Shown here one piece after another: positions 22,472 to 64,000 of a DNA stretch of 64,000 bases. The DNA is from Nakamurella aerolata (GTDB lineage: Bacteria; Actinomycetota; Actinomycetes; Mycobacteriales; Nakamurellaceae). The notes below the pieces were generated by a model. The model had not been told where the DNA came from, did no database searches, and saw only the letters and a list, made by a program, of their open reading frames with translations. The stretch lies in the NCBI RefSeq assembly GCF_013002705.1, contig NZ_JABEND010000006.1, positions 1 to 64,000 on the forward strand, read 5' to 3'. The position numbers and the translations under genes were made by a program. Numbering within the stretch: position 1 is the stretch's first letter; each line of letters starts with the position of its first letter.

Positions 22472-22508
22472 CTCTGGCAATGCTCCGTCTCGCGGAGCAT
22501 TGCCAGAG
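22472..22508. repeat. 37-bp palindromic element, copy 1 (intergenic)
   Basis: Arms CTCTGGCAATGCTCCG and CGGAGCATTGCCAGAG (16 bases each, perfect) around loop TCTCG. This is the reference copy of a five-member family in the window. It lies between two minus-strand genes. Confidence 0.9.
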
Positions 22509-50804: not shown

Positions 50805-52139
50805 ATGCGGGACGTGGTTGCGCCCAGCCTGAACCGACAGATCCTCGCCCTCGCGCTGCCGGCGCTCGGCGCGCTGATTGCCGAGCCGATCTTCCTGCTG
50901 GTGGATTCGGCGATCATCGGCCATCTCGGAGTGGCGCAGCTGGCCGGCGTCGGGGTCGCCGCCACCATTCTCACCACCGCCGTTGGCCTGTCGGTGTTCC
51001 TGGCCTACGGCACCACCGCGCAGGTGGCACGGTTGCTCGGCGCCGGGAACCTGCGGCGCGCGCTCAGCCTCGGCATGGACGGCATCTACCTGGCGTTGGG
51101 GATCGGCCTTGCGCTGGTCGTCGTCGGGATGCTGGCCGGGCCGGCCGCGATCCGGGCGCTGGGCGCCAGCGGCGATGCTGCCCGGTACGGCACCAGCTAT
51201 CTGCTGTGGTCGCTGCCAGGCCTGCCCGGCATGCTGGTGGTGCTGGCCTGCACCGGGGTGCTGCGCGGCCTGCAGGACACCCGCACCCCGCTGTGGGTCG
51301 CGGTGGCCGGGGCGATCTCCAACATCGGGTTGAACCTGTTGCTGGTCAACGGTTTCGGCTGGGGCGTCGCCGGTTCGGCGATCGGCACGGTGATCGCGCA
51401 GACCCTGATGGCGGCGGCGTTGGTCGCGGTGGTGGTGCGGCACGCTCGTCACCACCGAGCCAGCCTGCGACCGGACCGACGCGGCATTCGCGGGGCCGGG
51501 GCCGCCGCCGTCCCACTGTTGATCCGCACCCTGGCGCTGCGGGTGGGCATTCTGGCCACCACCATGGCCGCGGCACGGCTCGGCCAGGTCGGGCTGGCCG
51601 GGCATCAGGTGGTGAACACCGTGTGGAACTTCCTCGCGCTGGCGCTGGACGCACTCGCGATCGCGGCACAAGCGTTGACCGGCAAGACTTTAGGGGCGGG
51701 TGACGCCGCCGAGGTACGGGGCGTGACGCGCGCCATGGTGTGCTGGTCGCTGGGGGCCGGCGCGGTGATCGGGCTGCTGGTGTTGCTCGCCGCGCCCTGG
51801 GTCGGCGCTGTCTTCACGCCGGATTCCGGTGTGCGGCACGCCATCACGCTGGGACTGCTGGTGGTCGCGGTGGCGCAGCCGCTGGCCGGTTATGTGTTCC
51901 TGCTGGACGGGGTGCTGATCGGCGCCGGCGACGGGAAGTACCTGGCGTGGGCCGGCTGCCTCGCGGTCCTGGTGTACCTGCCATTCGCCTGGGCCGTCGC
52001 GGCCTGGGCGCCGGCCGGGCCGGTCGGGCTGCTCTGGCTCTGGATCGCTTACACCGCAGTGTATTTGACCGCCCGCGCGGTGACGTTGGGCCTGCGCTAC
52101 CGACGGGACGCGTGGCTGGTGCTCGGCGCCGGTCGATGA
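50805..52139 (+). CDS. MATE-family efflux transporter (DinF type)
   Basis: A 444-residue protein with twelve helices. ALGALIAEPIFLLVDSAIIGHLGVA is the DinF-type start, and LACTGVLRGLQDTRTPLWVAV the central motif. DinF-type MATE proteins export drugs or oxidised compounds using H+ or Na+. ATG 50805 is taken because the helix begins soon after; the extension to 50733 is the translated tandem repeat. Confidence 0.92.
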   Translation: MRDVVAPSLNRQILALALPALGALIAEPIFLLVDSAIIGHLGVAQLAGVGVAATILTTAVGLSVFLAYGTTAQVARLLGAGNLRRALSLGMDGIYLALGIGLALVVVGMLAGPAAIRALGASGDAARYGTSYLLWSLPGLPGMLVVLACTGVLRGLQDTRTPLWVAVAGAISNIGLNLLLVNGFGWGVAGSAIGTVIAQTLMAAALVAVVVRHARHHRASLRPDRRGIRGAGAAAVPLLIRTLALRVGILATTMAAARLGQVGLAGHQVVNTVWNFLALALDALAIAAQALTGKTLGAGDAAEVRGVTRAMVCWSLGAGAVIGLLVLLAAPWVGAVFTPDSGVRHAITLGLLVVAVAQPLAGYVFLLDGVLIGAGDGKYLAWAGCLAVLVYLPFAWAVAAWAPAGPVGLLWLWIAYTAVYLTARAVTLGLRYRRDAWLVLGAGR

Positions 52140-52145
52140 GTCGCG

Positions 52146-52814
52146 TCAGCCGACCCCCTGCGCGGCGTAGTCACGGATCTGCACCTTCGATGCGATCTGA
52201 AGCAGCTGCTGATCGGGAAGGTCAGCGGTACTGGCGGGGAACTGCACCATCGCGCGGAGACCGCGACCCACGTCGACGATCACCGTCCTGCCACCTGCCG
52301 GGTTGGTGTTGTCGTTGCGCAGCAACAATTGTCGCCCGTTCACGGTGCGGTCCATGGCGCCTGGCGCCGACTTCGGCTCGGCGAGCAGCACCACGATCAT
52401 GGAGGGGTACGACATCTTGATGTCCGGTCCGGGACCCTCGGTGGACGTCTCGCTGACCACCATGCCCCCTGGGCCGTACTCGACCGCGCCGTTGTCGCTG
52501 CGGGCGAAGGCCCAGCCGTTCGGCAACTGCGGCAACGCGAACGGCGCACTGGCCGGGGTGGCTGCGGCGACCAATCCGGACGTGGCCCGTGGTTGCGCCG
52601 CGGCGGGCTGCGTCGGCTCACCCGGGGTGTTGACCAGCAGCGCTGGGGTCAGGATGATCGCGGCCGCCGCGACCCCCGCGCCCGCGGTGTAAGCGAGCCG
52701 GCGCCTGCGTTGCCTGGCGCCGATGGCGGCCTCGATGGCCGCCATGGCGGCGCCGGCATCGCGAGCGTTGGCGGCCTGGGCGGTGAGCTCGTCGTGCAGG
52801 GCTGTGGTGCTCAT
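52146..52814 (-). CDS. Single-pass membrane protein paired with the SigE-type sigma factor
   Basis: A 222-residue protein. A short cytoplasmic part with a basic stretch (GARQRRRRLAYT) is followed by one helix near residues 42-61 and an extracytoplasmic beta-rich domain. The ATG overlaps the stop of the sigma-factor gene and AAGGAG is present, so they are one operon; the protein is probably the membrane regulator (anti-sigma-like) of that factor. It lacks the zinc-binding HxxxCxxC of classic ZAS anti-sigma factors. Function is inference from the gene pair. Confidence 0.8.
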   Translation of the reverse strand: MSTTALHDELTAQAANARDAGAAMAAIEAAIGARQRRRRLAYTAGAGVAAAAIILTPALLVNTPGEPTQPAAAQPRATSGLVAAATPASAPFALPQLPNGWAFARSDNGAVEYGPGGMVVSETSTEGPGPDIKMSYPSMIVVLLAEPKSAPGAMDRTVNGRQLLLRNDNTNPAGGRTVIVDVGRGLRAMVQFPASTADLPDQQLLQIASKVQIRDYAAQGVG

Positions 52815-53398
52815 GGGAGAACTCCTTGCGATTCGGTAAAAAGGGGGCCGGTGGGGTGGGGGGCCGTGCCGCGCGGTTCGGCGGCGCGCGGTTCGGCTGT
52901 GCGCGGTTCGGCGGCGTCCCGACGCAGCGCAGCCAGCCCGCGGCTGACCAACGCCCTGGCGTTGACCTGGCTGCACCCGAGATCGGTGGCGATGTCGTGG
53001 TAATCGAGGTCGACGTAGAACCGCAGTACAACGGCGGCCCGCTGTCGCGGCGGCAAAGTCGCGAGGCGGTGCCGGAGTTCGGCGCGGTCGGTGATCACCA
53101 GCGCCGGGTCGTCGCTGTGGTCGCCGGCCAGCTGGACCAGCTCGTCCTGATCGGTCGGCCGCACCTGCCTGGTATGCCACCTGCGGTGCTGCGAGATCCA
53201 TTCATTCGTGATCATTCGACGCAGGTATGCGGTACGGTGCTGCATCGGCGCGATCCGGCGCCAGCGGGTGTGCACCTTGACCATGACGTCCTGCACCAGA
53301 TCGCCGCCGGTATCGGGACTGCCGGTGAGCGCGGAAGCGAACCGCAGCAACTGCGGCAGCTCGGCGCCTGCGAATTCGGCGAAGCCGGTGTGCGTCAT
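52811..53398 (-). CDS. SigE-family ECF-like RNA polymerase sigma factor
   Basis: A 195-residue sigma factor: region 2 (LRFASALTGSPDTGGDLVQDVMVKVHTRW, with RTAYLRRMITNEWIS) and region 4 (RLATLPPRQRAAVVLRFYVD, DYHDIATDLGCSQVNARALVS). This is the pattern of the actinobacterial SigE family (SACE_1888/Streptomyces SigE-like group). After region 4 the end is AEPR-type repeats and a Pro-rich tail. The stop overlaps the membrane-protein start by ATGA. Confidence 0.9.
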   Translation of the reverse strand: MTHTGFAEFAGAELPQLLRFASALTGSPDTGGDLVQDVMVKVHTRWRRIAPMQHRTAYLRRMITNEWISQHRRWHTRQVRPTDQDELVQLAGDHSDDPALVITDRAELRHRLATLPPRQRAAVVLRFYVDLDYHDIATDLGCSQVNARALVSRGLAALRRDAAEPRTAEPRAAEPRGTAPHPTGPLFTESQGVLP

Positions 53399-53450
53399 GG
53401 CTGATCAACGCTCACCGTGCCGGGTTTGTGACACCCGGTGGTCGGTGGTT

Positions 53451-53502
53451 CGCGCTCCGCTAGCGCTCCGCGGGCCTGTCGCGCTCCGCTAGCGCTCCGC
53501 GG
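53451..53502. repeat. 23-bp direct repeat at the 3' end of the M20 peptidase gene
   Basis: The 23-base unit at 53451-53473 returns at 53480-53502 after six bases. Each unit contains CGCTCCGCTAGCGCTCCGC. The second copy covers the last codons and stop of the peptidase gene, and the first is just beyond. It might work as a transcription stop between the two minus-strand genes. Confidence 0.7.
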
Positions 53503-54709
53503 TGGCCTTCTGCAGGCGGCGCAGCGCGGTCTCGGCGAGCAGTGCTGCCCCGTCCGGGACAACGGAGTCGTCGAACGCGGCGCGCGGAGAGTGGTTGTCC
53601 GGCGCGGTTTTCGGGTCGTCGCTGGTGCAGGCGGACAAGAAGATGAACGCCGACGGCACCTCGTTGGCGACGAACGAGAAGTCTTCGGAGCCGGCCTCCG
53701 GGAACGGCATCTCGGTGTAGTGATCGGCGCCGAACAGATCGGTCACCACGTCGGTGAGGAACCTGTACTCGTCCGGGTCGTTGACGGTGACCGGGTAACC
53801 ACGCCGGTAGTCGATCTCGGCCTTCATGCCGTGCGCCGCGGCAACATGGTTGGCGACCGACGTCAGCTCGTCCTTGATCTTGGCGTTGGTGTCCGGTGAG
53901 AAGGTGCGGACCGTCATCTCCAGCCGGGCGTCGTCCGGGATGATGTTGTCCTTGCTGCCGGCGGCGATCATCCCGCAGGTCACCACCACCGGGTCGAAGA
54001 CGTTGAACTTGCGGGTCACCATGGTCTGCACCGCCAGCACGATCTCACAGGCCACCGGCACCGGGTCGAGGGAGTTGTGCGGCTGGCTGCCGTGGCCCCC
54101 GCGGCCGCGCACGGTCACGAAGAACTCGTCGGCGGCGGCCATCAACGGCCCGGGCCGACCGAACCACATGTCCTTGGCCTCCCCCGCGCTGGTGACGTGC
54201 AGCGCATAGGCGGCGTCCACCCGGCGTCCGGCCGCTTCCAGCAGGCCCTCGCGCACCATCGGATCGGCCCCGCCCGGGCCTTCCTCACCCGGCTGGAACA
54301 TGAAAACCACGTCGCCGGGCAGCTGATCGCGCAGCTCGTGCAGGATCTTGGCCGCACCAACAAGGCCGGCGACATGCAGGTCGTGACCGCAGGCGTGCAT
54401 CAGCCCGTTCTCGGAGGCGTAGTCGAGGCCGGTCTGCTCGACCACCGGCAACCCGTCCATGTCGCCGCGAAGCAACACCACCGGACGGTCGGTGCCGCTG
54501 GCTCCCGGCGCGGTACCACGCAGCACCGCCACCACCGAACTGAGCTTGCGACCCTTGGTGATCTCCAGGTCGAGCCCGGCGAGCTCATCCAGAATGGTCT
54601 GCTGGGTGACGGGGTTGTCCAACGCCAGCTCGGGGTTCGCGTGGATCTTGCGGCGCAGCGCGATCAGCTCCGGAGCCAGCCGCGCTGCCAGGTCCTGCGT
54701 TGAAGTCAT
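53489..54709 (-). CDS. M20-family amidohydrolase/peptidase
   Basis: A 406-residue metallohydrolase of the AbgB/HipO (amidohydrolase) group: LRGDMDGLPVVEQTG, HACGHDLHVAG (zinc ligands), FMFQPGEEGPGG (catalytic Glu), HVTSAG, the dimerisation domain with GRGGHGSQPHNSLDPV, and PFPEAGSEDFSF near the end. It cleaves N-acyl amino acids or aminobenzoyl-type amides; substrate unknown. The ATG overlaps the stop of the DUF998 gene, so both are one operon. Confidence 0.93.
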   Translation of the reverse strand: MTSTQDLAARLAPELIALRRKIHANPELALDNPVTQQTILDELAGLDLEITKGRKLSSVVAVLRGTAPGASGTDRPVVLLRGDMDGLPVVEQTGLDYASENGLMHACGHDLHVAGLVGAAKILHELRDQLPGDVVFMFQPGEEGPGGADPMVREGLLEAAGRRVDAAYALHVTSAGEAKDMWFGRPGPLMAAADEFFVTVRGRGGHGSQPHNSLDPVPVACEIVLAVQTMVTRKFNVFDPVVVTCGMIAAGSKDNIIPDDARLEMTVRTFSPDTNAKIKDELTSVANHVAAAHGMKAEIDYRRGYPVTVNDPDEYRFLTDVVTDLFGADHYTEMPFPEAGSEDFSFVANEVPSAFIFLSACTSDDPKTAPDNHSPRAAFDDSVVPDGAALLAETALRRLQKATAER

Positions 54710-55482
54710 GACAGCACGGTATCCGGCTGCCCGGCGGGCCGCCCTTCCGCGGTGCGATCGAGCACCCACCAGGCAAGCACCCCGACCGCAACGATCTCGG
54801 TGGTCGCCACTCCGCGCTCGATGATCCCCACCCACGGCAGTAGGCCGTCCTTGCCGAGCAGACTGAGCACCGTCTGCGCGGCCAACACCGCGAACCAGCC
54901 GAACGAGATCCAGGTGAGCATGGCGATGATCCGAACGGCGCGGTGTGGTGCGGGCGGCTCTGGCAATGCTCCGTCTCGCGGAGCATTGCCGAAATCCAGC
55001 TGCCGGCGCACGTGCCGACGGACCACCAGCAGCAGCGCGATGGGCAGCGATACGAACGCCAGCAGCGTGAACGACCAATGGATGCGGCCCTGGACGGTTG
55101 GGTCGGGTCCGATCATCGTCTTGGTGATCACGGTGAGACCGACCAGGCCGACGCACCACAGCGAGTACCAGACCGCCCAGCCACCGCGGAACCTAATGGT
55201 GCCGCTGTGGTGCAGCGCTGCGCCGATGAGCACCGATGCCGCTGCCAGCACCAGCACCCCGGCCGCGAACATCCAGGCGCCGGGGACCAGCGCGTACTCG
55301 CTGATGGTGGTGCGCAACGGATCCAGCCGGCGGCCGCCTGGGGTGATGTGCATGACGATCTCTAGCGCGCAGGAGATCGCGATGCCGACCAGCCCGGCAA
55401 TGCTCAGCCTTCTCACCGCGCGCCTGGGATCCGCCGCCGCGTCGACGCGGACCGGCTCGTCGAGGGCCGGCTCGGTGGTCAT
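54706..55482 (-). CDS. DUF998 membrane protein carrying an in-frame palindromic element
   Basis: A 258-residue protein with six or seven helices; LRTTISEYALVPGAWMFAAG is the DUF998 signature. Between the fourth and fifth helices, in a cytoplasmic loop, the residues FGNAPRDGALPEP are encoded by palindrome copy 2 (54958-54990), which is in frame and 33 bases long, so the gene is not disturbed. Its stop overlaps the start of the M20 peptidase. ATG 55482 follows AAAGG. Confidence 0.85.
   Translation of the reverse strand: MTTEPALDEPVRVDAAADPRRAVRRLSIAGLVGIAISCALEIVMHITPGGRRLDPLRTTISEYALVPGAWMFAAGVLVLAAASVLIGAALHHSGTIRFRGGWAVWYSLWCVGLVGLTVITKTMIGPDPTVQGRIHWSFTLLAFVSLPIALLLVVRRHVRRQLDFGNAPRDGALPEPPAPHRAVRIIAMLTWISFGWFAVLAAQTVLSLLGKDGLLPWVGIIERGVATTEIVAVGVLAWWVLDRTAEGRPAGQPDTVLS
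54958..54990. repeat. Palindromic element, copy 2 (inside the DUF998 gene)
   Basis: CTCTGGCAATGCTCCG, TCTCG, CGGAGCATTGCC: identical to copy 1 over 33 bases, lacking the last four (AGAG). 33 is divisible by three, so the copy adds eleven codons in frame. Confidence 0.9.
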
Positions 55483-55550
55483 GACAGGGTGGCCTTTCGG
55501 GCGGCGGGTGGATCCGCCGGTCAGCCTACCCAGGACGATGGCCCCTTCGG

Positions 55551-56309
55551 TCAGCCTCCGGCAAAGCTCCACCCCTCGTTACAGCCGGGCGGTTCGCACT
55601 GGCACGGACAGCTGGGGTGACAGGTGGTTTCACACTCGGGCCCGCATTGGCACTCTTCATAAACCCATTCCCGGTGCGGCGACGGGTGCAGCCGCTCGAA
55701 CATTCGGGCGCGCCGTCGGTCGGGACGGCGCAGCCGCAGCTCCAGCTCGCTGGAGTGATCCGATCCGACCGCCCCGATACGTTGCCGCCGTTCGTCACGC
55801 CAGTGCCGGTGGTGGAAGGTGAGCCGCGGTACCGGTCGATCGTGCCGCCACCCGCCGATCGGCGCATCGCGCAGGGTGGGGATCCACGCGTCCAGGTGAG
55901 CCGGATAGCGCGCGCCGGCGTGGTTACGGGCCGCCGTTTCACGCATCGGGGTGACCGGCTCGTCGTCCTGATCAAGGGCCACCAACCGGATCCCGCCGAG
56001 CTCAAGAATCGCGGCGAGCACCGTGATCGAGATGGCTCCGGTGGTCTCGGCCCGGCCGATGGTCGCTGGACTCACCCCGATTGCCTCGGCCAGGTCGCGT
56101 TGGCTCAGGTCGAGCGTTCGGCGGACGCGGCGGATGAGCCCGGCCCACTTGGCCGTCCGATTGGCTGCCGGCGTCCGCTCGGACAGGCTGCGCTGGTGCA
56201 GAGCCGGCTTGCGCAGCTGCACGCTTCCTGCGCCACCGGACGGCCGGCCTGCGCCGCCGGCCGACGGACGAGAGTTGATCCGAGTTCCCCGCCGCTCGCG
56301 TCCCCCCAT
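55551..56309 (-). CDS. XRE-type regulator with a Cys-rich C-terminal tail
   Basis: A 252-residue protein. Residues about 56-105 are an XRE helix-turn-helix (IRRVRRTLDLSQRDLAEAIGVSPATIGRAET split by one turn), preceded by a basic N-terminal tail. The C terminus (residues 220-243) has eight cysteines in 24 residues (CQCGPEC, then CHPSCPCQC), a spacing that suggests a zinc or iron-sulfur site. ATG 56309 has GGGAGC upstream. Its ORF lies just upstream of the DUF998/M20 operon on the same strand. The combination is unusual; target unknown. Confidence 0.8.
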   Translation of the reverse strand: MGGRERRGTRINSRPSAGGAGRPSGGAGSVQLRKPALHQRSLSERTPAANRTAKWAGLIRRVRRTLDLSQRDLAEAIGVSPATIGRAETTGAISITVLAAILELGGIRLVALDQDDEPVTPMRETAARNHAGARYPAHLDAWIPTLRDAPIGGWRHDRPVPRLTFHHRHWRDERRQRIGAVGSDHSSELELRLRRPDRRRARMFERLHPSPHREWVYEECQCGPECETTCHPSCPCQCEPPGCNEGWSFAGG

Positions 56310-56582
56310 GACACTGCTCCCTTCGGTTTGCCGGATGAGCCCCTGCCGATCATCCGTTCGATAGGTGTTCCAGAGCTGCTTGAACCATGGCACATGCCTC
56401 CGACAGTGCACCCGATCAAGATCATTTCGAGCGGTCCGGAGCGAGCGAGGGGGTGTTGTGGAGCAGGCTCTGGCGGTGCTCCGTCTCGCGGAGCATTGCC
56501 AGAGGCTGCCGCAGGAGAGCACACGACAAGGGCCGATCGCCAGCAGGGGTCAGCGGCAGTGTCAGCAGCAGGGGTCGGCTCG
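56310..56582. other. Interval between ligD and the XRE gene, with palindrome copy 3
   Basis: 273 bases without a supported gene between two minus-strand genes. It holds one copy of the palindromic family at 56468-56504. The A/T-richer part at 56340-56430 is a plausible promoter region for the XRE gene. Confidence 0.5.
56468..56504. repeat. Palindromic element, copy 3 (intergenic)
   Basis: The right arm CGGAGCATTGCCAGAG and loop TCTCG are exact; the left arm reads CTCTGGCGGTGCTCCG, two mismatches from the family sequence, so two pairs of the stem are lost. Confidence 0.9.
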
Positions 56583-58877
56583 TCAGCTGTCCCGCACCAC
56601 GTCGGAGGGATTCTTGTCGCGACGCAGCCCGCGCCAGCTGGCGGCGCGCAGGTGATGGTCGGGTGTCCACTCGCCGAAGGTGACCTCGCCGACCAGTTCG
56701 GGACGTACCCAGATCATGCCGCGGGCCTCGGCCCGCGGGACGTCTTCGACCGGGCAACTGTCGGTCTGGAGCGGAAGCAGTCGCTCGGTCAGGTCGACCA
56801 GCACCCGATCACTGAAGCCCGTACCGACGCGGCCCGCGTAGCGCAGCTTGCCGTCCTCGTTAACAGCCAGCGCGATCGAGCCGAGCACACCCTCACGGCG
56901 GCCCTCTCCGGGCTTGAACCCGATCAGCACCACCTCCTGGTCCTGCTGGTTCTTCAGCTTGAGCCAGTTGCCGGACCGCGTGCCGGGCCGGTAGGTCGAA
57001 TCCAGCCGCTTCACCACCACCCCCTCCCAGCGCCGCTCCCGCGAGGCCCGCATGGCGTCGGCCAGGTCGCCGGTGAACGCCGGCGGAGTGTGCACGTGAG
57101 CGGACTCCAGTTCCAACGCCGTCAGCAACTGCCGCCGGTCGGCCAACGGCTTGTTGACGAGCGGGATCCCGTCGATCTCCAGCAGATCGAAGGCGAAGTA
57201 GCGGACCGGGAGCTGCTCCGCCATCCGGGCGATCTGTGCCGGCGACACCAGATTCATCCGCTGCTGCAGCAGCGGAAAGCTGGTCCGTTCGACACCGGGG
57301 GCACCGGTTCCTGTCCCGCCGTCCGTCCCTTCCAGGACGACGATCTCACCGTCCAGCACGGCCCGGTGACCGGCCAGCACATCGGCGAGCTCGGCCAGCT
57401 CCGGGTAGCCGGCGGTGAGCTCACGTCCGGAGCGACCGACCAGCCGCACGGCCGGTTCCTGCGCGTCTGGTTCCTGTGCGGCTGGTTCCTGTGCGGCATC
57501 GACCACGGCGAGCGCGCGGATCCCGTCCCACTTGCCCTCGATCTGCCACTGGGCCTGGTCGCGGATCAGCGCGGCATCACCCGCGGTTGCCAGCATCGGC
57601 GCCCACCGGCTCAGGTCCGAGCCGCCGTCGCCACCGTCCTTGGCCACCGCGGCAGCCCGACCCGAAACCGCAGACCGACGGAAGTCGCGGCGCACCACCC
57701 GACCCCGCGGACCCTCAAGCGGATCCACGCCCCATCGGTGCGAGCCGTGCATCTTGTCCTGCTTGGCAACCCACTCGTCCTGCATGGTCGCGGCACCACC
57801 CGAGGCGTCCTGACCTGCGGCGTTGCTCGAATCACCGGCATCGGACCTGGCGCCGGCCGGGGCAGCGGCGGACGGTTCGGCGGGCGCATCTTCGGCAATG
57901 CTCCGTCTCGCGGAGCGTTGCCAGAGTCGGCCGCCAGCATCACCGCCGGAATCCGGCTCCGGCCCCGAATCGTCCGTATCAAGCTGTCCGAACATGTCCG
58001 CCCAGGGATCGATGCCGTCGTCCAGCCGCTGCAGCACCTGGTGCAGGTCCAGCTGCTGCAGCGCCGGGTCGGCGATCTCCTCCCAGGTCCGCGGCGCCGC
58101 GACCAGCGGCCGTTCCCGCCCACGCAAGGAGTAGGGGGCGATGGTCGTCTTCGCCGCGCTGTTCTGCGACCAGTCGATGAACACCCGCCCCGGCCGGACG
58201 GACTTGGCCATCTTGCTGGTGATCAGCTTCGGATGCGCCTGCTCCAACGTCTCGGCCACCGCCTTGGCGACGGCCGTCACCTGGTCGGAGGTGCGGGCGC
58301 CCGTCCCGGCGGCATCGAGCGGGACGTACAGGTGCACGCCCTTCGAGCCGGACGTCACCGGCACCGCGTCGGACCCGGCATCGGCCAACAGCTCGCGCAC
58401 CCACAACGCCACCTGCGCGCACTGAGCCAACTCGACCCCGGGCCCAGGGTCGAGATCGAACACCATCCTGGTCGGGTCGCCGACCCGGCGGCGTCCGGGC
58501 GAACCGGGTTGGAACACCCATTGCGGCACATGCAGTTCCAGCGCGGCCATCTGCGCGAACCACACCAGCACCGCCGTCGAATCGGCGAGCGGGTAGTCCA
58601 CCGGCCGGTCGATGTGCGCGACCACCTGACGCGGGATCCAGGCCGGCGCCCCGGCTTCCAGGTTCTTGGTGAAGAACGGCTCAACCGAACCGTCGGCGCC
58701 GACGCCGTCCGGCCAGCGCTTACGGGTGACCGCCCGGTCGGCCAGCACCGGCAGCAGCGCCGGAGCGGCGGTGGCGTAGTAGTGCACCACGTCGCCTTTG
58801 GTGGTCCCGACAGCCGGGTACAGCACCTTGTCGAGGTTGGTCAGCGACAGCCGGTGCCCGTCCACCTCGGTGCGCAC
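56583..58877 (-). CDS. ligD: LigD: polymerase-ligase fusion of non-homologous end joining
   Basis: A 764-residue protein. Residues about 1-285 are the LigD polymerase domain (LSLTNLDKVLYP, TKGDVVHYY, VFDLDPGPGV with the metal Asp residues near 139, SGSKGVHLYVPL, and SKMAKSVRPGRVFIDWSQN). Residues about 430-764 are the ATP-dependent ligase: EGKWDGIRAL with adenylated K449, LDGEIVVL, FAFDLLEIDG, EGVVVKRLDSTY and WLKLKN. The 3'-phosphoesterase domain of mycobacterial LigD is absent; instead there is a low-complexity linker with the palindromic element (about residues 317-329). GTG 58877 is the start. Divergent from ku. Confidence 0.95.
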   Translation of the reverse strand: MRTEVDGHRLSLTNLDKVLYPAVGTTKGDVVHYYATAAPALLPVLADRAVTRKRWPDGVGADGSVEPFFTKNLEAGAPAWIPRQVVAHIDRPVDYPLADSTAVLVWFAQMAALELHVPQWVFQPGSPGRRRVGDPTRMVFDLDPGPGVELAQCAQVALWVRELLADAGSDAVPVTSGSKGVHLYVPLDAAGTGARTSDQVTAVAKAVAETLEQAHPKLITSKMAKSVRPGRVFIDWSQNSAAKTTIAPYSLRGRERPLVAAPRTWEEIADPALQQLDLHQVLQRLDDGIDPWADMFGQLDTDDSGPEPDSGGDAGGRLWQRSARRSIAEDAPAEPSAAAPAGARSDAGDSSNAAGQDASGGAATMQDEWVAKQDKMHGSHRWGVDPLEGPRGRVVRRDFRRSAVSGRAAAVAKDGGDGGSDLSRWAPMLATAGDAALIRDQAQWQIEGKWDGIRALAVVDAAQEPAAQEPDAQEPAVRLVGRSGRELTAGYPELAELADVLAGHRAVLDGEIVVLEGTDGGTGTGAPGVERTSFPLLQQRMNLVSPAQIARMAEQLPVRYFAFDLLEIDGIPLVNKPLADRRQLLTALELESAHVHTPPAFTGDLADAMRASRERRWEGVVVKRLDSTYRPGTRSGNWLKLKNQQDQEVVLIGFKPGEGRREGVLGSIALAVNEDGKLRYAGRVGTGFSDRVLVDLTERLLPLQTDSCPVEDVPRAEARGMIWVRPELVGEVTFGEWTPDHHLRAASWRGLRRDKNPSDVVRDS
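57454..57498. repeat. 15-bp tandem repeat x3 in ligD
   Basis: Three near-identical 15-base units (type GGTTCCTGTGCGGCT on the plus strand) code AQEPx on the minus strand, a short loop inserted in the ligase domain after the adenylation motif. Confidence 0.85.
57890..57926. repeat. Palindromic element, copy 4 (inside ligD)
   Basis: Left arm CTTCGGCAATGCTCCG (two changes from the family sequence), loop TCTCG, right arm CGGAGCGTTGCCAGAG (one change). On the minus strand it is read in frame as LWQRSARRSIAE in the linker between polymerase and ligase domains. Confidence 0.9.
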
Positions 58878-59002
58878 CGATTCGCCAGCACCGCCGCGCC
58901 CTGCCCGCGCCACCGCACCTCCCTCGCCTCGAACCCGTCCCGAATGACACCAGTGTGGCGGCAGCACTGTCGGCTGTCGGCCAGAAGGTTCATCATGGTG
59001 AC

Positions 59003-60028
59003 ATGCGATCCATCTGGAAAGGCTCCGTCGCCTTCGGGCTGGTCAACGTGCCGGTGCGGCTGTACAGCGCCACCGAAGACCGCGACGTCAAATTCCATCA
59101 GGTGCATGCCAAGGACGGCGGCCGTATCCGGTACCAGCGGGTCTGTGAGCTCGACGGCGAGGTGGTGCCGTTCAGCGACATCGAAAAGGCTTACGACTCC
59201 GAGGACGGGCAGACGGTGGTGCTGTCGGCGGACGACTTCGCCAGCCTCCCGGTGGAGGAAGACCGCGAGATCACCGTGCAGAGCTTCGTCCCGGCCGACC
59301 AGATCGATCCGTTGATGTTCGAGAAGGCCTACTACCTGGAGCCGGCGAGCAAATCCGCCAAGCCGTACCAGCTGCTGCTGCAGACCCTGCAAGACACCGA
59401 CCGGATGGCGATCGTCAGCTTCGCGTTGCGGCAGAAGACCAGGCTGGCCGCGCTGCGCGTCCGCGACGGGGTGCTGGTGCTGCAGACCCTGCTCTGGCCG
59501 GACGAGGTGCGCCAGGCCGAGTTTCCCGCGCTCGACAACGACGCCAAGGTGGCACCGGCCGAGAAGAAGATGGCGGCCATGCTGGTCGATTCCTACGCCG
59601 ACGACTTCCACCCGGAGAACTACACAGACACCTACCGGGAAGAGCTGCAACAGCTGATCGACGCCAAACTCGAAGGCGGCGAGGCATTCCCCGCCAAGGA
59701 GTCCGACGACGAGGGCGAGGACGCCGAGGTGGTCGACCTGCTGGCCGCACTCAAGCGCTCCGTCGCGCGCCGCAAAGAGGCATCCGGCGGCGGCAAAGAC
59801 AATGGGAGCAACGACGACGACGTCAAAGAGAACGACGGCAGAGAGAACGACGGCAAAGAGAACGACGGCAAAGACGACAAGAAGCCGGCGGCGGCATCGT
59901 CGCGGTCGACCCGCGCATCCAGCAAGACGTCCGGCACCAGGTCGAGCAGCAGCAAGTCGTCCGGCGACAAGGAGTCGACCACCAAGAAGAAGGAGCCGGC
60001 CGCGCGGCGCACCAAGAAGGCCGGCTGA
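59003..60028 (+). CDS. ku: Ku protein of non-homologous end joining
   Basis: A 341-residue homodimeric Ku. The core starts MRSIWKGSVAFGLVNVPVRLYSATED and includes HQVHAKDGGRIRYQRVCE, VSFALRQKTRLAALRVRDG and ESDDEGEDAEVVDLLAALKRS, the ring that clamps DNA ends and recruits LigD. The last 80 residues are a Lys/Ser/Asp-rich extension with a 15-bp tandem repeat, which in other bacteria aids DNA binding and bridging. ATG 59003 begins the conserved core. Head-to-head with ligD. Confidence 0.96.
   Translation: MRSIWKGSVAFGLVNVPVRLYSATEDRDVKFHQVHAKDGGRIRYQRVCELDGEVVPFSDIEKAYDSEDGQTVVLSADDFASLPVEEDREITVQSFVPADQIDPLMFEKAYYLEPASKSAKPYQLLLQTLQDTDRMAIVSFALRQKTRLAALRVRDGVLVLQTLLWPDEVRQAEFPALDNDAKVAPAEKKMAAMLVDSYADDFHPENYTDTYREELQQLIDAKLEGGEAFPAKESDDEGEDAEVVDLLAALKRSVARRKEASGGGKDNGSNDDDVKENDGRENDGKENDGKDDKKPAAASSRSTRASSKTSGTRSSSSKSSGDKESTTKKKEPAARRTKKAG
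59825..59869 (+). repeat. 15-bp tandem repeat x3 in ku
   Basis: Three copies (AAAGAGAACGACGGC, with two changes in the second) each code KENDG or RENDG in the Ku C-terminal extension. Confidence 0.85.
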
Positions 60029-60039
60029 CCGGCTCTCGA

Positions 60040-60681
60040 CTACCGCGACCCGAGCGCGCGCAGATGCCTCGGGTCCGCGCCGGCGAAGATGCTGCTCCGC
60101 ACCGAGTCGCCCAGCTGCAGCCGGTCGGTCGGGTCCCGCCAGACCTCCGCCATCGCCAGATAGCCGGACGACGACCACTGCCCGCCGCTCTCCCCGCAGT
60201 GCACCTCACCAGGCACCCGCCGGCCGTCGATCTCCAACTCGCCCGACTGGCACGGCGCGTACACGTTCGACACCGCCAACGTGATGTCACCCAGCTCGAA
60301 CGCCAGGTTGATGTACTGGCGCCGCTGCTTCACCTCGGACAGCCGCATCTCGATGCCGCCACCGGAGGCCTGCAGACCACTGCCCAGATCGGCCCGCAGC
60401 TGCACCGGCGCGGTCACTTGGCGCACGTCGGCAACGGCAGCGAAGGGGGCGAGCTCGGGAAAATGCCTGGTGAAGCGGTCCCACAGGATGCGGCCGAGGT
60501 GCTCGTCCTGCCCGACGATCCGCCACTGCCCGTCGTGCACCGCGATCAGCACGGTGCCGAAACCCCACACCGACCAGTCGACGGTCCACAGGCTGGCGGC
60601 AGCCACCGGCGCCGCCGCCTTGTCGTCACCAGGCGCGAACAGCACCAGTCCGGGGTTGCTCCCGACCAGCACCACACTCAT
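60040..60681 (-). CDS. Hypothetical protein
   Basis: A 213-residue protein that converges on ku, with 11 bases between stops. It looks globular: MSVVLVGSNPGLVLFAPGDD, DWSVWGFGTVLIAVHDGQWRIVG and YINLAFELGDITLAVSNVYAPC. No signal peptide and no clear motif, so no function is proposed. ATG 60681 is preferred; the longer frame to 60843 has an Arg/Ser-rich tail of no known type. Confidence 0.7.
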   Translation of the reverse strand: MSVVLVGSNPGLVLFAPGDDKAAAPVAAASLWTVDWSVWGFGTVLIAVHDGQWRIVGQDEHLGRILWDRFTRHFPELAPFAAVADVRQVTAPVQLRADLGSGLQASGGGIEMRLSEVKQRRQYINLAFELGDITLAVSNVYAPCQSGELEIDGRRVPGEVHCGESGGQWSSSGYLAMAEVWRDPTDRLQLGDSVRSSIFAGADPRHLRALGSR

Positions 60682-60920
60682 CTTCGCCGCACTCCGTCGC
60701 TCGTCATCGGGTCCGTCAGCTGGGGTTGACCGACCTGATCCAGCGTGCGCTCTACCGGAATTGCTCGCATCCGCACGCCGGGAGCTTCCACGCAGTTTCA
60801 CCCGATTGGTGGTTTGATGATCATGCTCGTCGGGTACCCGCAATCGGGTCGCAAACCACGTCGACCCCCTGCCCGAGCGATCGGTGCAGGAGAAGTACTA
60901 CATCACTCACGGAGGTAACC

Positions 60921-61202
60921 ATGGGTTGGTTGGGCACAGCCGTCTTCGCGATCATCATCGGCCTCATCGCCGGCGCGGTCGCGCGGCTCGTTGTTCCGGG
61001 CAAGCAGGACATGTCGATCCCGATGACGATCCTGCTCGGCATCATCGGCAGCCTCGTTGGCGGCTTCCTCGGAAAGCTGATCTTCAACAAGGACGCCAAC
61101 GAAGGCTTCTTCCAGCTGTCCGGTCTGATCGGGTCGATCATCGGAGCGATCATCGTGGTGTTCATCTGGTCGCGTTTCTCGGGGCGTCGTTCCGTCACCT
61201 GA
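60921..61202 (+). CDS. GlsB/YeaQ/YmgE-family membrane protein
   Basis: A 93-residue protein with three hydrophobic segments, starting MGWLGTAVFAIIIGLIAGAV, with VPGKQDMSIPMTILLGIIGSL in the middle. This is the transglycosylase-associated protein family, small stress-induced membrane proteins of unknown activity. GGAGGTAACC lies directly before the ATG. A T-run terminator follows. Confidence 0.9.
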   Translation: MGWLGTAVFAIIIGLIAGAVARLVVPGKQDMSIPMTILLGIIGSLVGGFLGKLIFNKDANEGFFQLSGLIGSIIGAIIVVFIWSRFSGRRSVT

Positions 61203-61226
61203 GCCAGCGCACACCACACCGACGAG

Positions 61227-61262
61227 AACGGGCCCACCTCCACACCGGAGGCGGGCCCGTTT
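61227..61262 (+). terminator. Intrinsic terminator of the YeaQ-like gene
   Basis: AACGGGCCCACCTCC and GGAGGCGGGCCCGTTT pair with one A/C bulge around a five-base loop, ending in TTT. It lies 24 bases after the stop codon. Confidence 0.8.
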
Positions 61263-61368
61263 CGCATGGGGCACAAGACATTCGGATGCGGCCCAGCTCG
61301 GCGGCCCAGCTCGGCGGCGCAGCTCACCTGCGGCCGGGCGGCAGGTCGGCGCTCGGTAGGTTGAGCGG

Positions 61369-61866
61369 ATGGGCCGAGCCGCAAGAGCCGAACGCATCGT
61401 CATCGTCACCCGCACCATCGACGCCAGCCCGGCGACGCTGTTCAACCTGCTCGCCGACCCGCATCAACACCAGCGGTGGGACGGGTCCGGCATGGTGGAC
61501 GGGAATGCCAGGGGTCCGGACCGGCTGCACCTCGGCGACACCTTCACCATGCAGATGCACCAGTCGCGAGTGCGCTATCGCTCGGTGAACGAGGTGATCG
61601 AGCTCGACCCGGACAAGAGCATCGCCTGGCGCACCCTCGGCAGATGGCGCGGGCGGCGGGTGATCGGCGGTCAGGTCTGGCGGTATCAGCTGGTGCCGAC
61701 CGAGGATCCGGACGGCAGGCGCGCCACCCTGGTGATCCACAGCTACGACTGGGGTGCCGCGATGGCCGCGCCGGTACTGGCACTGCTCGGCTATCCACGC
61801 CGGATGGGCAGGTCGATGGCGGTGTCGCTGCAGCGGCTGGCGGAAGCCGCCTCTAGCTTTACCTAA
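61369..61866 (+). CDS. SRPBCC-family protein
   Basis: A 165-residue START-like domain: VTRTIDASPATLFNLLADPHQHQRWDGSGMV is the family start, RVRYRSVNEVIELDPDKSIAWRT the middle strands and PRRMGRSMAVSLQRLAEAA the final helix. It binds a hydrophobic ligand; the ligand is unknown. It is a second SRPBCC member in the window, only distantly like the one at 42252. A possible partner is the acyl-CoA ligase that starts 62 bases downstream. Confidence 0.85.
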   Translation: MGRAARAERIVIVTRTIDASPATLFNLLADPHQHQRWDGSGMVDGNARGPDRLHLGDTFTMQMHQSRVRYRSVNEVIELDPDKSIAWRTLGRWRGRRVIGGQVWRYQLVPTEDPDGRRATLVIHSYDWGAAMAAPVLALLGYPRRMGRSMAVSLQRLAEAASSFT

Positions 61867-61928
61867 AGGACTTTGCGACAATGGCCGGTATCGTTCGGTA
61901 AGCCGTCCAACCTGCGCAAAGGAGCGCC

Positions 61929-63434
61929 ATGACGAACCTGGCCAACAATCTGGTGTCCACCGCCGCTCGGCTGCCCGAGCAGCCGGCGCTGATTCTCGAT
62001 GAACACCGGCTCAGTTATGCGCAACTGGACAAGGCCGCCACCGCGGTCGCCGGTTACCTGAAGAGCCAGGGGATCCAGCCGGGCGACCGGCTCGCGCTGA
62101 TGCTGCCGAATGTCCCCGCGTTCGCGGTGATCTACTACGGAGCGCTGCGGGCTGGGGCCATCGTGGTGCCGATGAATCCGCTGTTCAAGACCCGGGAGAT
62201 CGAGTACTACCTGCGTGACTCCGGGGCGTCGATGCTGTTCGCGATGCCGTCCGTCACCACCGAGGCCGCCGGCGCCGCCGAAGCGGTTGGCGTCCCGTTC
62301 GTCCCGATCGACGGCGCTGACACCATCGCGCTCGGGCCGATCCTGCAGGTGGCCGGGGCACCGCCGCTGGCCGAGGTGGCGGACCGGGCCGACGACGACA
62401 CCGCCGTCATCCTGTACACCTCTGGCACCACCGGCAGCCCCAAGGGCGCCGAGCTGACCCATTTCAACCTGAACCGCAACCAACAGACGACCACCGAGAC
62501 GCTGCTGCGGCTCGGACCGGACGACGTGGTGATGGGCTGCCTGCCGCTGTTCCACGTCTTCGGGATGACGGCCGCGCTGAACGCCTCGGTAGCCTCCGGC
62601 TCGACCCTGACGCTGATCCCCCGGTTCGACCCGGCCAAGGCCCTCGAGGTGATCGGCCGGGACCAGGTCACCGTGTTCGAGGGGGTGCCGACCATGTACT
62701 CCGCGATGCTCGCGGCGGCCGCGCACGCCCCGTCCGCTGACCTTTCCAGCCTGCGGGTGTGCGTGTCCGGCGGCGCGTCGCTGCCGGTGGAGGTGCTGCG
62801 GAAGTTCGAGGAGCGCTTCTCGGCGATGATCCTCGAGGGCTACGGGCTGTCCGAAACCTCGCCGGTGGCCTCGTTCAACCATCCGGACGCCGAGCGCAAG
62901 CCGGGTTCGATCGGCACCGCGATCCGCGGTGTCGAGATGGCGGTGTTCGACGAGAACGACGCCGAGGTGCCGCAGGGCGAGATCGGCGAGATCGTGATTC
63001 GCGGCGACAACATCATGCGCGGCTACTGGAACAAACCCGACGACACCGCGGTGGCGATGCGCGCCGGCTGGTTCCACAGCGGCGACCTGGCCCGCCGCGA
63101 CGAGGACGGCTACTTCTTCATCGTGGATCGCAAGAAGGACATGATCCTGCGCGGCGGCCTGAACATCTACCCGCGCGAGATCGAAGAGGTGCTGTACGAG
63201 CATCCAGCGGTGGCCGAGGCAGCCGTCGTCGGCGTCCCGCACGACACCCTCGGCGAGGAGGTGGCCGCGTTCGTGGTGCTGGCCGAGGGCGCGTCCGCCG
63301 AACCCGCCGAGCTGTCCCAGTGGGTGAAGGACCGGCTCGCCGCGTACAAGTACCCGCGCCAGGTGACGGTGATCCCGGCCCTGCCCAAGACCGCGACCGG
63401 CAAGATTCTCAAGCGCGAGCTCGCCTCGGACTAA
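61929..63434 (+). CDS. Long-chain fatty-acid-CoA ligase (AMP-binding)
   Basis: A 501-residue acyl-adenylate enzyme. Motif A8-type [18 protein letters not shown] (about residue 161), [39 protein letters not shown], and the C-terminal [14 protein letters not shown] with the catalytic Lys. It activates a fatty or aromatic acid to the CoA thioester; chain length is not clear. AAAGGAG precedes ATG 61929. Confidence 0.94.
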
Positions 63435-63492
63435 CCACTCCCCGTCAAGCCCCGGGGCGATCACCGCAGGTCAGGGGCACTTTCGGGGGCGA

Positions 63493-63529
63493 CTCTGGCA
63501 ATGCTCCGCGAGACGGAGCATTGCCAGAG
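63493..63529. repeat. Palindromic element, copy 5 (intergenic, loop inverted)
   Basis: The arms are exact copies of the family sequence (16 bases each); the loop is CGAGA, the complement of TCTCG, so this copy is in the other orientation. It lies between convergent genes, 58 bases after the ligase stop, and may also end transcription. Confidence 0.92.
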
Positions 63530-63570
63530 CGCGCCGCGCCAGAGAGCCCGTCGGACAATTTCGGCCCGGA

Positions 63571-64000
63571 TCAGGGCACGTACTCCACCACCGAGTGCAT
63601 CGGGGCGGCGAGGGTGCCGATGCCGAAGGTGTCGCCGGGGCCCTTGCTGAGCGGGCTGGCCACGCCGTCGCCGATCAGCAGCACCCGGTCGGCCAGCGCC
63701 ATCAGCGACTCGTCGTGAGTGGTGACGACGGCGGCCACCCGATGCTGGTGCACCAGCTCGCCTATCAGCTCAAGGATGGTCTCGGCGGTGGCGCTGTCCA
63801 GCTGCCCTGTCGGCTCGTCGGCCAGCAGCAGCGCCGGACGGGCCACCAGCGCCCGGGCCAGCGCCACCCGCTGCTGCTGCCCGCCGGACAGCTCGTTCGG
63901 GCGCTGCTTGCCGTGCCCGGTGAGGCCGACCTCGGCCAGCACCTCGTCGATCCGCGCGGTCCGCTCGTCCGGCGCCATCCGCAGCAACCGCAACGGGATC
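63571..64000 (-). CDS. ABC transporter ATPase (LolD/FtsE-like), truncated at the window edge
   Basis: The last 142 codons of an ABC ATPase enter from the right edge. Signature [19 protein letters not shown], Walker B LLLADEPTGQLD and switch VVTTHDESLM are all present; Walker A lies outside. The ADEPTGQLD form is that of LolD/MacB/FtsE-type ATPases serving lipoprotein release or permeases of the FtsX group. The stop is at 63571. The C-terminal tail (VASPLSKGPGDTFGIGTL) is short. Confidence 0.85.
   Translation of the reverse strand, partial: IPLRLLRMAPDERTARIDEVLAEVGLTGHGKQRPNELSGGQQQRVALARALVARPALLLADEPTGQLDSATAETILELIGELVHQHRVAAVVTTHDESLMALADRVLLIGDGVASPLSKGPGDTFGIGTLAAPMHSVVEYVP

Follow-up and report, generated by a model that had tools for sequence, protein, structure and literature searches.

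The 37-bp palindrome that lies in frame within ligD of Nakamurella aerolata is probably one copy of a dispersed, REP-like repeat of this species and Nakamurella lactea that is statistically tied to a gene for an XRE-type helix-turn-helix (HTH) protein and that landed in a tolerant linker of LigD. The repeat is dispersed and its copies cluster, ligD reads open through the copy that it holds, and another copy forms a clean insertion in the gene of a DUF998 membrane protein.

The palindrome and its copies in the window

The 37-bp consensus, CTCTGGCAATGCTCCG-TCTCG-CGGAGCATTGCCAGAG, is a perfect palindrome. In the window, by which we mean the whole stretch of 64,000 nucleotides that was analyzed, five matches with at most three mismatches were observed, with none expected from 100 shuffles. 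These copies and the genes around them are as follows.

22472..22508, no strand assigned: perfect palindrome copy, intergenic
54706..55572, minus strand: gene of a DUF998 membrane protein, with an in-frame insertion
54958..54994, minus strand: palindrome copy in the DUF998 gene, in frame as FGNAPRDGALPE, three changes
55551..56309, minus strand: gene of an XRE-type HTH protein with a conserved PAHLD region and a C-terminal Cys cluster, the proposed partner of the palindrome
56468..56504, no strand assigned: palindrome copy that follows the stop codon of ligD and precedes the start of the HTH gene by 159 nt
56583..58967, minus strand: ligD, encoding a polymerase domain (Pol), a disordered linker and a ligase, without a 3'-phosphoesterase domain
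57890..57926, minus strand: palindrome copy in ligD, in frame as the peptide LWQRSARRSIAE, 3 of 37 positions changed from the consensus
63493..63529, no strand assigned: perfect palindrome copy, intergenic between convergent genes, loop orientation inverted

The copies have 37 bp alone in common. Their flanks are unrelated, being no more similar to each other than background, and the repeat is therefore the palindrome itself; a longer mobile unit was rejected on the same background-level similarity. No constant GTAG or CGTC tetranucleotide adjoins the 37 bp at the copies, Rfam covariance models gave no match in 52000-64000, and no intrinsic terminator (a hairpin followed by a T-run) was found at the copies in 54000-64000. 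An intact copy is predicted to form a hairpin of -31.8 kcal/mol. Two observations count against an insertion model: a length of 37 is not a multiple of three, so that an in-frame insertion requires two extra bases (modulo 3), and no duplication of a target site was seen.

The palindrome has no stop codon in any of the six frames, and copies landing in the LigD linker or in a DUF998 loop could therefore persist as extra residues. We do not regard this compatibility as a special feature, as 28% of random palindromes with matching composition likewise lack stops in six frames. All three in-gene copies (54958 and 57890 in the window, and L010:1991) and one intergenic copy (L012:1996) end in CGAA instead of NGAG, a pattern that was noticed post hoc and may be due to chance. 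The segment 61920-63419 of the window is inverted relative to N. lactea, and the copy at 63493 lies beside one of the breakpoints.

The copy in ligD

The ligD gene is a single open reading frame of 794 aa with the Pfam domains LigD_Prim-Pol, DNA_ligase_A_M and DNA_ligase_A_C. An initial annotation had reported a palindrome at 57890-57926, in frame and in the linker between polymerase and ligase. Both points are borne out, as the match to the consensus (34 of 37) is far above chance, and LWQRSARRSIAE occupies residues 348-359, between the end of Pol at residue 322 and the start of the ligase at 457. The residue numbers given there, 317-329, would fit translation beginning with the GTG codon of VRTEVDG by our interpretation of the sequence, and correspond to 348-359 in the 794-aa frame. 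The copy had further been called the most diverged, with three changes, and been taken to have been kept long enough to drift. The three changes are real, but the copy at 54958-54994 has equally many and other genomic copies have four to nine; since the ligD copy is not the most diverged, the argument for drift fails. LigD had also been described as essential, although in non-homologous end joining it is usually not.

Read in the ligD frame, the consensus encodes LWQCSARRSIAR. All three changes in the ligD copy are non-synonymous, and so there is no sign of peptide conservation. The hairpin predicted for the LigD mRNA, at -19.4 kcal/mol, is less stable than the -31.8 kcal/mol hairpin of an intact copy.

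Homologues encoding the same residues without a palindrome had been named as the observation that would speak against a palindromic element, yet the LWQRSARRSIAE residues are absent from all 11 other Nakamurella LigDs that were aligned. Sequence in the linker is hypervariable, and the nearest two LigDs, from N. lactea and from genome G016, cannot be aligned within it. These are the two homologues that lack the phosphoesterase domain, and a clean empty-site demonstration for LigD, for which no relative was close enough, was dropped for this reason. Without alignable flanks, the case for insertion depends on identity to the repeat (34/37), from which we infer that the palindrome in ligD is an insertion. 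The unaligned linker stretch of the N. lactea protein (228 nt) is about equal in length without a palindrome, which counts against this. In the seven other Nakamurella LigDs scanned, a 3'-phosphoesterase domain (PF13298) lies between Pol and ligase; this species, N. lactea and G016 lack it and have a disordered linker in its place, which is therefore free of domain constraint.

In-gene copies in the DUF998 and cutC genes

The copy in the DUF998 gene is a clean in-frame insertion. It is read in a different frame from that of ligD, yielding FGNAPRDGALPE, and the protein has about 17-18 extra residues at the palindrome compared with 13 homologues, with membrane segments that align on either side. 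Counting against an insertion of the palindrome as such, these homologues are only ~28-46% identical and the insertion measures 51-54 nt, longer than 37 nt. The copy in cutC is not claimed as a third insertion because the residues it encodes are aligned to a native helix and the length is unchanged. Directly after the palindrome-coding stretch, CutC of this species (L010:1522-2376) has ~20 additional residues (IGSRAGLVTSGNSVESGGRDA).

Distribution and turnover in Nakamurella

Using a covariance model built from 23 copies, we found 21 distinct copies in the genome of this species and 11 in N. lactea DSM 19367 (G007), while the remaining 15 Nakamurella genomes gave no match below an E-value of 0.06. 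The family is thus limited to 2 of 17 Nakamurella. When 84,980 species genomes were scanned for an exact 24-base match, only N. lactea was returned (records close to our own genome were possibly left out), and the palindrome was not found in IMG/VR viral contigs. Copies in this species are chiefly intergenic, including some at divergent promoters; three lie in genes, namely ligD, the DUF998 gene and cutC. With no match to the Y1/RAYT transposase (Y1_Tnp, PF01797) in this genome, which is 95% complete, a RAYT/IS200 partner was rejected.

Contigs C16 and C19 of this species are syntenic with C14 and C2 of N. lactea, and among the regions compared no copy occupies an orthologous place in N. lactea. 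At 189.6 kb of C19, two copies lie in a 233-bp spacer whose N. lactea counterpart is an empty intergenic site of 36 bp. This contig, which makes up 6.4% of the genome, holds 9 of 14 separate sites (p 3e-8), and a stretch of 25 kb contains six of these nine. Other arrangements were also seen. About six diverged palindromes, alternating with a second palindrome, GCGCTTCCGCGGAAGCGC, follow one another in tandem at intervals of 90-112 bp at 369.7-370.3 kb of C16 (L011:2050-2640). At 201.8-202.4 kb of C19 (L130), a ~255-bp tandem duplication carries two palindromes, and a third unit ends mid-palindrome. In N. lactea, a ~16-kb insert relative to our genome (C14:149.7-165.6 kb; L115/L116) has palindrome copies near both edges, where rearrangement at the repeats is possible.

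Association with an XRE-type HTH gene

The HTH gene is located between ligD and the gene of the DUF998 protein, and it is because one genome has HTH-linked, ligD and DUF998 copies within 3 kb that this candidate partner was found. Among the 17 Nakamurella, only the two with the repeat have the gene. Both carry a palindrome 159-212 nt upstream of it (159 in this species, about 210 in N. lactea), at loci that are non-syntenic. Other copies cluster at the gene as well, with five of the 13 remaining sites lying no more than 22 kb away in this species (p 1e-7) and 2 of 9 within 20 kb in N. lactea (p 0.002), both by a test chosen after the data were seen. The 26 homologues compared all have the XRE helix-turn-helix and a PAHLD segment that does not vary, and at the C-terminus a C-x-C-x3-C...H-x3-C-x-C-x-C cluster. 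Matches to Pfam and to solved structures (HipB- and C-protein-like) are confined to the HTH part; the Cys/His cluster likely binds zinc.

Of 399 genomes of the order, 113 have a homologue of the HTH protein, and we therefore rejected the view that the gene is a curiosity of Nakamurella. In family f16, which appears to be Geodermatophilaceae, the HTH locus is syntenic between species, and 32 of 45 loci examined, second paralogues included, have a perfect palindrome with 9-23-bp arms upstream of the gene. Many f16 genomes contain 5-33 scattered copies of its usual form, GTGCTCTGC...GCAGAGCAC, and a reversed-pattern control gave no hits. Searching the order for TGCTCYGC..GCRGAGCA and calling genomes with at least five copies repeat-rich, we found 34 such genomes among the 113 with the HTH gene versus 1 among the 286 without (p 1e-19), so that 34 of 35 repeat-rich genomes have the gene; within f16 the corresponding figures are 33/62 versus 1/14 (p 0.002), related genomes being treated as independent in both tests. 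Counting against a partnership, genomes with the gene and without the searched palindromes are common (29/62 in f16, and f15 generally), and one genome without the gene (G292) has six copies. The prediction that the palindrome upstream of the HTH gene is the one that is dispersed was tested in G092, where this gene has an unrelated upstream palindrome (GTCTGTGAGTGCC...), and three further copies of that variant were found in a 400-kb sample. Statistically, then, palindromes of this type are associated with an XRE-HTH gene directly downstream of one of the copies. In two f16 genomes (G344 and G169), 15 of 23 dispersed sites lie between convergent genes near stop codons, and the inner stems of the palindromes covary.

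Proposed mechanism and alternative explanations

We propose that the HTH protein recognizes the palindrome and would, most likely, regulate its own gene through the upstream copy, while palindromes elsewhere most likely act as REP-like elements at transcript ends. Copies may have spread locally in Nakamurella from the HTH-linked source copy. One of them would have landed in ligD, where a disordered linker could tolerate it; this landing was presumably incidental and near-neutral, with the peptide being translated. More tentatively, and with somewhat less than even confidence, the palindromes may represent a RAYT-independent class of actinobacterial REP-like elements. The XRE-HTH/Cys-cluster protein would be their dedicated partner, recognizing the palindrome, keeping its own upstream copy, co-evolving with the palindrome, of which at least three different sequences are seen, and driving or tolerating dispersal, including in-frame landings such as that in LigD.

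An unlikely alternative, and the one that survives best, is that the palindromes are ordinary operator sites of an XRE-HTH regulon, with the ligD and DUF998 copies kept as intragenic binding sites for regulation rather than being mobile. It would account for the observation that, in most genomes, a copy matching the dispersed sites in sequence precedes the HTH gene. However, the position of most f16 sites just behind stop codons of convergent genes is unfit for operators, the near-perfect hairpins of 37-45 bp, whose inner stems vary and covary, suggest structural constraint, and the DUF998 copy is an insertion.

We give still less credence to the idea that the palindromes terminate transcription in both directions, multiply as structural DNA and neighbor the HTH gene only by chance. 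The f16 placement between convergent genes agrees with termination, as do three perfect N. lactea copies close behind stop codons and the strength of the hairpins (-31.8 kcal/mol), yet the window copies have neither a T-run nor a terminator call, copies of this species also occur inside genes and at divergent promoters, and the HTH linkage persists at non-syntenic loci and second paralogues. We hold it just as improbable that a selfish palindrome of the Rickettsia type (RPE/REP) was moved by RAYT or another transposase, with no role for the HTH protein. Such elements show the same intragenic behavior, DNA-repair genes included (PMC3733652), but Y1_Tnp was not found in the 95% complete genome, the copies have no constant GTAG/CGTC tag, and the HTH association would be left unexplained. 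Chance formation of a palindrome by codons of the LigD linker can be dismissed: the cutC copy does coincide with a native helix of unchanged length, but a 34/37 identity to a dispersed repeat, with zero expected in shuffles of the window, residues found in no aligned LigD homologue, and the genome distribution (21 copies here, 11 in N. lactea) refute it.

Relation to known repeats

REPs and Rickettsia palindromic elements (RPEs) already provide examples of short palindromes within genes, a DNA ligase gene among them. GTAG- and CGTC-tagged REPs are palindromes of 20-40 bp that are dispersed mainly outside genes, close to 3' ends and between convergent genes, and CGTC REPs have no dedicated transposase; many intragenic REPs lie in DNA-repair genes, sometimes in frame, one of them in a DNA ligase of Opitutus terrae, and Actinobacteria are not mentioned in that work (Di Nocera et al. 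2013, PMC3733652). The Nakamurella palindrome, with 37 bp and 21 copies of which 3 are in genes, agrees with REP-like repeats in the general sense (20-45 bp, many dispersed copies, mainly extragenic). Tagged REPs have an unpaired tag at one end, whereas this palindrome has no tag and is linked instead to an XRE-HTH gene. It resembles RPEs in behavior, being translatable in frame, and in different reading frames, within unrelated proteins (DUF998, LigD), with DUF998 homologues that lack the insertion, but only two to three of the 21 copies are intragenic. As in REP-RAYT systems (REPtrons), a repeat copy adjoins the gene of a protein whose presence accompanies dispersal; unlike in those systems, the protein is an XRE-HTH protein with a Cys cluster and not a Y1 tyrosine transposase, PF01797 being absent from the genome. 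Neither this repeat nor an HTH protein as a partner of REPs was found in the open-access literature.

Palindromic repeats read in frame within proteins have been described mainly outside Actinobacteria. The new part is a candidate HTH partner protein for RAYT-less palindromes, which bears on the question of how such palindromes spread. If the partnership is true, the ligD copy would be a by-product of it that shows how such a repeat adds a peptide to a repair enzyme.
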